A DNA stretch of 64,000 nucleotides from Malassezia japonica (taxonomy: Eukaryota; Basidiomycota; Malasseziomycetes; Malasseziales; Malasseziaceae). Every line of letters starts with the position of its first letter. The first letter of the stretch is position 1. The stretch is taken from positions 1,796,001-1,860,000 of the forward strand of contig NC_083370.1 of assembly GCF_029542785.1 (NCBI RefSeq). Reading direction: 5' to 3'. Below the pieces are notes generated by a model, which worked only from the letters and a program-made list of their open reading frames with translations, had not been told where the DNA came from and searched no databases. A program made the translations under genes and the position numbers. Below, in pieces: positions 57,667 to 63,027 of the stretch.

Positions 57667-59025
<1,359 letters not shown>

Positions 59026-59116: not shown

Positions 59117-59205
59117 CACGCCGACGTTCGCCTATGGCGCAACTCGCTGCAGGAAAGGTGTGCTCCGTGTTCGGCCGAGGGCGATATTGCGCACGACGAC
59201 GTCGA

Positions 59206-61797
59206 CTACGTATAGGCCCACGTGCCCGACGCCTCCGCCCACGCGGCGAGCTGGTCGGTGGGTGTGTGGAGGAAGTGGGTGGCTTGTGCACCGCTCTCCG
59301 GCGAGGGTTGCACGAGCAGGCCGAGGCCGGGGCCGCCGACCTTGGTCTCGTACGAGGAGAAGCCGTAAGTCGCGAGCGACTGGACCAGGGAATCAGTCTG
59401 CGCTTCGCTCATGTCGTCGCGCAGGAGCGTAATGGCACATCCGCCGCCGCCGCCGCCGGTGAGCTTCGCGCGCAGACGGTGGGGCTGCGCGGCGCACGTC
59501 TTGCGTACCGTCTCCAGCGCGGGGTGGCCGACGCGCATCTGAACGAGCTGAAGATGATTCAGGTCCATGAGGCGGCCGAGGCGCTCCAACAGCGACGCGC
59601 GGCTTACGGCCATCTCGCCGGGCGGGGGCTCGAGCAGGAACTGCGCCTCGTCGGCGAGCATCTGAATCGTGTCAAACGCAGCCTGCATGCGCTCCGGCTC
59701 CTCCTCCTTCTGCGCACTGACACTCGCGACGAGTGCCTTGGTATTCCGCGGGACGCCCGTATCGGTGATGAGCAGGCGCAACGCGTCGAAGCCGCTGATC
59801 TGCGTCATTTTGTTCTCCTTCAGTGCATTGGTCGGAAGCGCACGCGAGAAGGCGATCGCGCCGCCGTGCGTCGCCACGGTGTTGTCCACGCCGCTCGGCT
59901 GGCCGTGGATCACCTTCTCTGCGAGGAACGCCCAGCGATTGATCTCGGACGTGTCGGCCTCGGGCAACGGCGCATCGGCGCGCGTCGGGAGGGTACGGTG
60001 GCCGTGCGTGTAGAGCATCGACGAGGCAAGGCACGCCGACACGGCGGCACTGCTGCCGAGACCCGCGCTGATCGGCAGCGACGAGCGGATCTGGAAATTT
60101 TGGCCATGGCTCTCGGGCGAGCCGAGGTAGAGATAGAGATAGAGGCAGGCGACGCTCGCCGCCTGGCGGCGGTCGCCCTCGGGGAACTGTGCGACGAGCG
60201 GCGTAAGAAGCGCCACGAGCTTCTCGTCGAGCTCGGTCGGGACGTCCGCCGTCGTCGGCCGTGCGGCCCACGGCAGCGCGTCGATCGCCCACTCGCACTC
60301 GAGCGCAATGTCGGGCATCTCGAGGCGCAGCATCTTGTCAGTGCGCGGCGTCACGCGTCCGTAGCACCGCAGCGCCGTGCACGCCGCGATGGCCGTCACG
60401 CCGTGCACTACGGCGTGCTCGCCAAAGAGAATAACCTTGCCCGGGGCGCTCACCGCGAGCGTGTCTGGGACGACCGGCTTCGGCGCGTTCTTGAGCGAGT
60501 TGGAACGCAGCTGCGTACGCAGCGCCTCCATCTCGTCCTGGACCGGGATGCGCTCGTACTCGGGCGTGCCGTCCGGCGCGACACCGATCTGGCGGATGGC
60601 GCCCGCGCTGACGAGCGCCTGCGTGAGGTCGTCGAGGAGATCGCGCACGTCCTCGATGCCGACGCACACGCGGATCAGGTTTTCCGGCATGCCGCGCTCC
60701 GCGCGCACCTTGGGGTCGATGCTCGCGTGCGACATGAGGCACGGCATGCTCAGCAAGCTGTTGACGCATCCGAAGCTCACGCTAACCCCCCATAACTTGA
60801 CGGCGGCCGTAATGCGCGCCGAGAGCTCCTTGTCGCCCGTCTCGAAGCTCATCACCGAGCCCGGCCCCTTGGACATGCGCTGGTGGATTGCGTAGCCCGG
60901 GTGCGTGCGCAGACCCGGGTAGTTGACGTGGAAGCCGAGGCGCTGCAGAAAGTGGGCGATCTGCATCGCGTTCACTTGCATCTTGTCCATGCGCAGTGCA
61001 AGCGTCTTGACGCCGCGCAGGAGCAGGAATGAGTCGAGCGGCGCGAGGGAGTTGCCCACCGAGTTGATCGTAAAGTACATGCGCTGTGCGAGGTCATCGC
61101 GGTTGCACGCCACGACACCGGCCATGATGTCGTGGTGGCCCGAGAGGTACTTGGTCGCCGAGTCGTACACGATGTCGACGCCCATATCGAGCGGGCGCAT
61201 GAGGTAGGGCGAGAGCATTGTGTTGTCCACAATCACGAGCGCTTCCGGAACGTGCTTGCGGACGATCTGCACGAACCGCGGAATGTCGCAGATCTTGAGC
61301 AAAGGATTCGTCGGCGACTCGAGCATGACCATGGTCACCGGTCCTGCGCGCCCCTCGGCATAGTCGGCGGCGCACTGCGCGAGGTGCCGCTCAAAGATGA
61401 TCGCGTCGGTCGTGTCGACGTGGTCCACCTGGATCTCGTACGTGGTGCGCAAAATGCCCAGCAGGCGGTTTGTGCCGCCGTACAAGTCATCGCCCGCGAC
61501 GATGCGCTCGCGCGGCTTGACCATGCGCGTGATAATGTCCAAGCATGCCATGCCCGAGGCTAGCACATAGGTGTGCTTGCACCCCTGGAGCGCCGACAAA
61601 TGGTTCTGCAGCACCGTGCGCGACGGATTGCCGGAGCGCGAGTAGTCAAACTCGGCGCCCGGCAGCCCCTTGAAGGTCGCCGTGAGGTAGACAGGCGTCG
61701 AAGACGCGCCGTACTGATCGCGGTGTGCCGGATCATTGGTCGTCGTGCACAGCGTCGCGAAGCGGAAGCCCTCGTCCTGCTGGGGGAGGTCCGCCAT
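59206..61797 (-). CDS. Fusion: cystathionine beta-lyase + mevalonate kinase
   Basis: One uninterrupted 863-residue frame. Residues 1 to ~415 are a complete cystathionine beta-lyase (DQYGASSTPVYLTATFKG, YSRSGNPSRTVLQNHLSALQ, ESPTNPLLKICDI, PLP Lys216 in SATKYLSGHH, PENLIRVCVGIEDVRDLLDD). Residues ~448-863 are a complete mevalonate kinase (SAPGKVILFGEHAVVHG; PISAGLGSSAAVSA near 580; KLTGGGGGGCAITLL near 780). A ~35-residue linker joins them; it includes Met423. The first half cleaves cystathionine to homocysteine; the second phosphorylates mevalonate in sterol synthesis. No stop, intron signal or intergenic space lies between. The ATG is 38 bp from the stop of upstream RCL1. Confidence 0.93.
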   Translation of the reverse strand: MADLPQQDEGFRFATLCTTTNDPAHRDQYGASSTPVYLTATFKGLPGAEFDYSRSGNPSRTVLQNHLSALQGCKHTYVLASGMACLDIITRMVKPRERIVAGDDLYGGTNRLLGILRTTYEIQVDHVDTTDAIIFERHLAQCAADYAEGRAGPVTMVMLESPTNPLLKICDIPRFVQIVRKHVPEALVIVDNTMLSPYLMRPLDMGVDIVYDSATKYLSGHHDIMAGVVACNRDDLAQRMYFTINSVGNSLAPLDSFLLLRGVKTLALRMDKMQVNAMQIAHFLQRLGFHVNYPGLRTHPGYAIHQRMSKGPGSVMSFETGDKELSARITAAVKLWGVSVSFGCVNSLLSMPCLMSHASIDPKVRAERGMPENLIRVCVGIEDVRDLLDDLTQALVSAGAIRQIGVAPDGTPEYERIPVQDEMEALRTQLRSNSLKNAPKPVVPDTLAVSAPGKVILFGEHAVVHGVTAIAACTALRCYGRVTPRTDKMLRLEMPDIALECEWAIDALPWAARPTTADVPTELDEKLVALLTPLVAQFPEGDRRQAASVACLYLYLYLGSPESHGQNFQIRSSLPISAGLGSSAAVSACLASSMLYTHGHRTLPTRADAPLPEADTSEINRWAFLAEKVIHGQPSGVDNTVATHGGAIAFSRALPTNALKENKMTQISGFDALRLLITDTGVPRNTKALVASVSAQKEEEPERMQAAFDTIQMLADEAQFLLEPPPGEMAVSRASLLERLGRLMDLNHLQLVQMRVGHPALETVRKTCAAQPHRLRAKLTGGGGGGCAITLLRDDMSEAQTDSLVQSLATYGFSSYETKVGGPGLGLLVQPSPESGAQATHFLHTPTDQLAAWAEASGTWAYT

Positions 61798-61835
61798 GGT
61801 CAGAGTCAGATGCTGAGATAAGCACTATGGTACAA

Positions 61836-62945
61836 TTAATTCACCCGCTTGTAGCCGCGGAAGCCGACGCCGACGCAGGAGAAGATGTGCTCCTCGGTGT
61901 CCGGCACGGGCTTGATCTTGAACACGACACCAAGCGTGTCGCGGATATCACGGAGGCACTGCACGGCCTGAGGCGTCAGCGCGCCGAGGCGCACTTTCGC
62001 GACGTCCTCCGGTCCCAGCGCCATGAGCACGAGTGCCATCGGCTGGTGGCTGCGGTCGATGCATCCTCCTCCCTGGATCTCGGAGAGGAGCTGGCGCGCG
62101 GCCTGCAAGCCCACGTCCTCGGGCGTGACGCCCGGGGCAGAGGTCGCCTCGGACGAATGCAGCGTGCCGGTCGTCGACGTGGCGACGAGCGACATGGCGT
62201 AGCCTGGCGACTTGCCCGACTCCTCGCCGCGGTAGACGTCGGAAAAGAGGTAGAGATCAGGGATGTAGCGGTTCAGCACGCTGCGGGCCGCGTCGATCAT
62301 GCGGTTGCTCATCTGCGGCGAGACGCGCACGGCGCTGGCAATGCCGCGGATCTTGCGGATGCGTCCCGGCTCGACAAAATTGAGCGGGCGCAGCGTCGCG
62401 ATGAGCGGCGCGCGGAAGAAGACCTCGCCGCCGCCCTGCGGGGGCGCGCCGCGCTTGGCGATGCGCAGCTCCATGGACGACGCGAGCATCGAGACCGAGT
62501 CGAGCGGCATAAACATGGCGAGCTGCGGGAGCGTCACAGTGCGCAGCGTGTCCACGCCCATGTCCCCCATGCCGGTCGTGATGCCGCGGAGCGTGAGCGC
62601 GATCTCCTGCTTTGCGAACGGCGCCAAAAGCACAATCCACTCGAAAAAGTAGCCGATCGAGCGCGAGAGGCCGCAATCGTGCGTCACCGCACCGCCAAAC
62701 ACAATACCGGGGCGGTAGTAGACCGATGTACCTGTGTAGTTGATCTCGACCGTGCTGCCATTGGTCAGCTTTTCGAGCAGACGCAAAAAGCCTGCCTCAA
62801 AGTCGCGAATTCCGGGCTCCTCGTCGTCGGGGCGGATCTTGTCAATGCGCACGGGTCGCGACGAGAGCGTCGCTAGCACGAGACGCTGCCGAAAGTAGGC
62901 ATGGCCGGTGAAGCGCACAAGGCGCTCGTCCTCGTCCCCCGCCAT
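61836..62945 (-). CDS. RCL1: Rcl1 rRNA-processing protein, RNA 3'-phosphate cyclase-like
   Basis: Single exon, 369 residues, as in the family. RtcA/Rcl1 fold with FTGHAYFRQRLVLATLSSRP, EINYTGTSVYYRPG, CGLSRSIGYFFEW and APPQGGGEVFF. Rcl1 lacks cyclase activity and works with Bms1 in 18S rRNA maturation at the U3 processome. Start MAGDEDERL at 62945 matches the family; an in-frame ATG at 63026 would overlap the divergent gene by nearly its whole promoter. Confidence 0.95.
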   Translation of the reverse strand: MAGDEDERLVRFTGHAYFRQRLVLATLSSRPVRIDKIRPDDEEPGIRDFEAGFLRLLEKLTNGSTVEINYTGTSVYYRPGIVFGGAVTHDCGLSRSIGYFFEWIVLLAPFAKQEIALTLRGITTGMGDMGVDTLRTVTLPQLAMFMPLDSVSMLASSMELRIAKRGAPPQGGGEVFFRAPLIATLRPLNFVEPGRIRKIRGIASAVRVSPQMSNRMIDAARSVLNRYIPDLYLFSDVYRGEESGKSPGYAMSLVATSTTGTLHSSEATSAPGVTPEDVGLQAARQLLSEIQGGGCIDRSHQPMALVLMALGPEDVAKVRLGALTPQAVQCLRDIRDTLGVVFKIKPVPDTEEHIFSCVGVGFRGYKRVN

Positions 62946-63027
62946 CGTCGCTACGCGCCAAAAAAATTCCTGCCGCGTGGCAATTCTCGCTGACAAATCG
63001 ATTGGCCGAGCTTGCTTGGTTACCAAG

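Follow-up and report, generated by a model that had tools for sequence, protein, structure and literature searches.

A Malassezia japonica representative of the basidiomycete cystathionine beta-lyase/mevalonate kinase fusion

The window analyzed here is a stretch of 64,000 nucleotides from Malassezia japonica. On its reverse strand, a single frame of 863 codons runs without interruption from its ATG to the stop codon and is readable without any intron. The encoded protein joins two enzymes, with the lyase N-terminal and the mevalonate kinase C-terminal (Table 1). The N-terminal half scores 499.5 bits against TIGR01329, the NCBIfam equivalog for cystathionine beta-lyase (cut-off 487.5, residues 24-399), and the C-terminal half scores 214.8 bits against TIGR00549, the NCBIfam equivalog for mevalonate kinase (cut-off 163.05, residues 451-791). 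Pfam families PF01053, PF00288, and PF08544 are each matched above cut-off. Among the best 60 of 111 matches to solved structures, the closest are cystathionine beta-lyase 1ibj (query residues 25-394) and, for the kinase half, mevalonate kinase 1kvk (query residues 444-829). The core stretches of the kinase are PGKVILFGEHAVVHG, LPISAGLGSSAA, GQPSGVDN, and KLTGGGGGGC. With both equivalog models above their cut-offs over 863 codons, the original prediction of two full-length enzymes in one uninterrupted frame holds.

Table 1. Features at the fusion locus and its flanks (positions in the window).
Feature	Position	Strand	Remarks
Cystathionine beta-lyase/mevalonate kinase fusion (metC-MVK type)	59206..61797	-	single ORF, 863 aa, 93.6 kDa
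Cystathionine beta-lyase domain, residues 24-399	60601..61728	-	TIGR01329 above cut-off
Linker, residues 400-449, with Met423	60451..60600	-	alignment and structure model
Mevalonate kinase core, residues 451-791	59425..60447	-	TIGR00549 above cut-off
C-terminal part of kinase half, residues 792-863	59209..59424	-	near-invariant W853, W860
O-acetylhomoserine sulfhydrylase (MET17 type), downstream neighbor	57667..58929	-	ORF given probably lacks first exon(s), by eye
RNA 3'-terminal phosphate cyclase family, upstream neighbor	61836..63026	-	stop codon 38 bp from the fusion's ATG

The stop codon of the upstream cyclase family gene and the ATG of the fusion lie on the same strand and are separated by 38 bp (61798-61835), so the fusion promoter probably overlaps the upstream gene. 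The downstream neighbor of MET17 type is another sulfur-pathway enzyme. Antisense to the fusion runs a 553-aa open frame (59134-60795, +), probably arising incidentally from GC-rich codon use.

The fusion is widely distributed among relatives. A search with the whole-length protein scored 7998 candidates and returned 1018 proteins at E <= 0.001, the best 120 of which were listed. Read by eye, PF01053 and PF00288 occur together in 120/120 of these. They include eight named Malassezia species and Malassezia sp. CBS 17886; by identity, the closest named relatives among the matches listed are M. brasiliensis (75%) and M. yamatoensis and M. vespertilionis (both 69%). Further genera listed with the fusion are Ustilago, Sporisorium, Tilletia, Exobasidium, Sporobolomyces, Rhodotorula, Microbotryum, and Bartheletia, together with many mushrooms. 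Five rows named as Rhodotorula species are fusions among the matches listed, and R. toruloides is not one of them.

A search with the kinase half returned 5121 proteins among 8000 scored, and again the best 120 were listed. Among these matches, separate kinases are found in Mortierella and its kin, Umbelopsis, chytrids, and ascomycetes, and the basidiomycetes that are named (Fibroporia, Ceratobasidium, and Candolleomyces) all carry PF01053. Some records in this search have no lyase domain, and the starts of 11 were inspected. Three of the lyase-free records (P0124, P0125, and P0131) are nearest to basidiomycete fusions; P0125 retains a lyase remnant at its start, and no remnant is visible by eye in P0124 and P0131. 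The nearest sequences to these last two are fusions of Sympodiomycopsis and Jaminaea relatives, and each of the two records may be either a fragment or a genuine separate gene left by a secondary split of the fusion.

Two Malassezia records are annotated as still longer proteins with a lyase-kinase-sulfhydrylase layout, P0003 from M. yamatoensis (1210 aa) and P0004 from M. psittaci (1249 aa). A triple fusion with MET17 was considered and rejected. The junctions differ between the two and both lie, by eye, within the sulfhydrylase and short of where the kinase normally ends, so the records are read as probable gene-model merges, as far as a comparison of the proteins alone can tell. Merged in this way, they suggest that the same MET17-type neighbor is present in M. 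yamatoensis and M. psittaci.

Since adjacent genes are probably merged in some Malassezia gene models, with P0003 and P0004 adding the sulfhydrylase by different junctions, the lyase-kinase joint might itself be an artefact of assembly or gene modeling that links two adjacent genes. This is extremely improbable in view of the intron-free frame, the co-occurrence of both domains in every relative listed, the report of the fusion as a mycelial unigene of Pleurocybella porrigens in the available part of PMC3720577, and the database record P0001. In that record (863 aa) the frame is the same and differs from the window only by substitutions at residues 776 and 841, and an assembly error in the linker, one of the outcomes that would have undone the original prediction, is therefore very unlikely.

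The combination had been taken to be undescribed. This part of the original prediction does not stand, as two papers of 2012 described the fusion, others followed in 2013 and 2014, and all 120 relatives listed have both domains. According to the portions available of Liu et al. (2012; PMC3342255), the fusion is present in 12 basidiomycetes, where it was named metC-MVK, and absent from Laccaria bicolor; it is described as the only homologue of both functions, with its origin placed in the basidiomycete ancestor. Like the window protein, metC-MVK consists of an N-terminal cystathionine beta-lyase (K01760) and a C-terminal mevalonate kinase (K00869), and its average length of ~886 aa compares with 863 aa in the window. 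A 16-aa insertion in the kinase is described there for 7 species, so it is not a defining feature; the pattern GRR[AGS][IVL], used as a proxy for this insertion, is matched in 33/121 rows of the alignment (the window protein and its 120 listed relatives), and the window protein is not included.

An independent description was derived from the phylogeny of STR3 in a 2012 rice-blast paper (PMC3468542). In its available text, a C-terminal mevalonate kinase region of ~450 aa is reported on the STR3 orthologues of all basidiomycetes examined there except Postia placenta, no separate mevalonate kinase was found in basidiomycetes, and the ascomycete genes are separate and unclustered. Malassezia is not mentioned in that text, and no difference was found between these orthologues and the window fusion. 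In their available sections, both 2012 papers report no separate mevalonate kinase among their basidiomycetes, and Laccaria bicolor (PMC3342255) and Postia placenta (PMC3468542) stand as exceptions in print to the fusion. Later papers from 2013 and 2014 repeat the fusion (PMC3720577 and PMC4129116, each in its available part). The accessible part of the Xanthophyllomyces genome paper (PMC4393869) lists ERG12, and the word cystathionine is absent from it.

Each half appears to be the only copy of its enzyme in the genome, which was searched across 8.43 Mb in 9 contigs; in the profile searches only the best candidates were scored, and the reading was exon by exon. TIGR00549 has four matches and TIGR01329 five, and in each case the fusion gene alone is above cut-off, with the other three and four lower. 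The kinase half as query finds one match, the fusion gene itself. GHMP matches number five, comprising the fusion gene and four others. Three of these have their best scores, above cut-off, as homoserine kinase, galactokinase, and diphosphomevalonate decarboxylase, and the remaining locus is a 69-residue piece that scores best as phosphomevalonate kinase, below cut-off. The seven matches of PF01053 include the fusion gene and the neighboring O-acetylhomoserine sulfhydrylase, the remainder being three matches at two contig 6 loci and two others that fall below the Pfam cut-off. The two contig 6 loci reach none of the curated cut-offs shown; the nearest model is NF005758 (cystathionine gamma-lyase) for one, and NF042918 (BesB), followed by a gamma-synthase model, for the other. 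The profile search of the 9 contigs thus found no second mevalonate kinase or cystathionine beta-lyase locus above a curated cut-off (TIGR00549 or TIGR01329), and separate intact copies, which would have refuted the original prediction, are therefore unlikely.

The residues that we take to be the key catalytic ones are K216, Y52, and R54 of the lyase half and K454, S582, S583, E627, D638, and N639 of the kinase half, and all are identical in 121/121 rows of the alignment; K216, within SATKYLSGHHD, is presumably the expected PLP lysine. The kinase half is the less conserved of the two, with a median distance of 0.49 vs 0.31 for the lyase half. Its motif 3 reads GGGGGG in the window protein, in place of the GAGGGG of most relatives, owing to a Gly at residue 782 (59452-59454, -) that is shared by 5/121 rows (window, P0001, P0006, P0021, and P0022, the two named relatives being Malassezia). 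Also in motif 3, Cys787 is replaced by Phe in P0096, and the row of P0034 is incomplete there. The lower conservation and the altered motif are what a catalytically dead half, or one retained only as a scaffold, might display. Such a loss of function is very improbable, given the invariance of the catalytic residues and the lack of any other genome locus above cut-off for either step.

Over 117 sequences (rows P0001, P0003, P0004, and P0034 were left out), pairwise distances in the lyase half track those in the kinase half with a Spearman coefficient of 0.75, against values of <=0.09 in 200 taxon shuffles; as the distance pairs are not independent, the correlation is consistent with shared ancestry and does not demonstrate interaction. 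At the C-terminal tail, W853 is conserved in 119/121 rows and W860 in 120/121. A tail specific to the fusion was considered, with a stricter pattern that occurs in 80/121 fusion rows and also in 12/120 rows of the kinase-half search. In the last 45 residues of eight separate fungal kinases, a Trp-rich tail also ends P0141, P0151, P0210, and P0233, and the idea was dropped because several separate fungal kinases share this end.

Between residues 395 and 450, the connecting stretch varies from 40 to 138 residues across the 121 rows and is poorly conserved except at its edges and at R416 (117/121). The structure model (mean pLDDT 83.8, pTM 0.55, 43 sequences), which does not give the arrangement of the domains, predicts strands at residues 401-406 and 412-416 and a helix at residues 422-436; residues 1-22 and 24-55 are poorly predicted. 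Met423 is present in the window protein near the start of this helix. It was originally placed in the linker and suggested as a site for separate production of the kinase. The position is confirmed, and Met423 lies 5' of the kinase motifs, but its use as a second start finds little support. Met occupies this column in just 26/121 rows, the named ones all Malassezia, and is therefore not a general feature, although the local form is DEM in 26/26 of the rows that have it. Furthermore, 18 in-frame Met codons, the start counted, precede Met423, which makes simple leaky scanning to it unlikely. It is consequently quite improbable that the gene yields both the fusion and a separate kinase, through initiation at Met423 or cleavage of the linker, with the enzymes mostly acting apart; internal initiation at Met423 within Malassezia is possible. 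The 4275-base locus around the kinase half contains no AATAAA, but with only 0.13 expected by chance this absence carries no weight.

Saccharomyces cerevisiae Str3p and Erg12p represent the same two enzyme families as the fusion but are two separate proteins. Str3p is peroxisomal by means of an SKL end, according to the available text of PMC9929924, whereas a PTS1-like C-terminal tripeptide is present in 0/121 fusion rows. Within residues 1-60, a PTS2-like motif is likewise present in 0/121; both counts include one incomplete row and two probably merged models. With neither kind of signal in the 121 rows, the fusion is probably cytosolic. Joining the kinase to the C-terminus of the lyase would itself remove any terminal signal of the lyase.

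The fusion is real, intact, conserved, and already described. Given the single frame, the lack of another locus above cut-off, and the identical catalytic residues, the joint is unlikely to be an error of assembly, and separate copies of either enzyme or an inactive half are unlikely too. Judged from sequence, the window gene is very probably the Malassezia copy of a bifunctional enzyme of ancient basidiomycete origin, located in the cytosol, whose two halves carry out their usual reactions. The N-terminal half would convert cystathionine to homocysteine, pyruvate, and ammonia, and the C-terminal half would phosphorylate mevalonate, both probably working in the cytosol as one protein with no substrate passed between them. 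The link most likely provides fixed co-expression, perhaps joint assembly or stability, and the fusion would persist because each half is the cell's sole copy. A counterpoint comes from Rhodosporidium toruloides, for which a legend in PMC5922974, the part available, maps insertions in STR3, in strains too rare for scoring; if STR3 of R. toruloides is the fusion, such insertions would be hard to reconcile with an essential kinase half. The Malassezia case adds to a known, widespread basidiomycete fusion and gives no sign of decay or duplication of either half.

The lyase and mevalonate kinase reactions have no common intermediate, and substrate channeling is therefore not expected. A functional link of another kind, in which substrate, PLP, or tetramer assembly in the lyase half alters the activity or stability of the kinase, seems unlikely; if true, sulfur amino acid supply would set isoprenoid flux in basidiomycetes. 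The originally suggested co-regulation of sulfur amino acid and sterol supply, with S-adenosylmethionine as the connection, is a compatible but speculative idea. That two enzymes without a common substrate are kept joined across so many basidiomycetes is a puzzle that the published accounts do not answer in their available parts, in which neither an activity measurement nor an explanation of the link was found. Loss of sulfate assimilation was considered as a context and rejected. The ATP sulfurylase, PAPS reductase, and nitrite/sulfite reductase families are all above cut-off in the genome, which places the lyase within a sulfur pathway that is seemingly complete at the steps tested.
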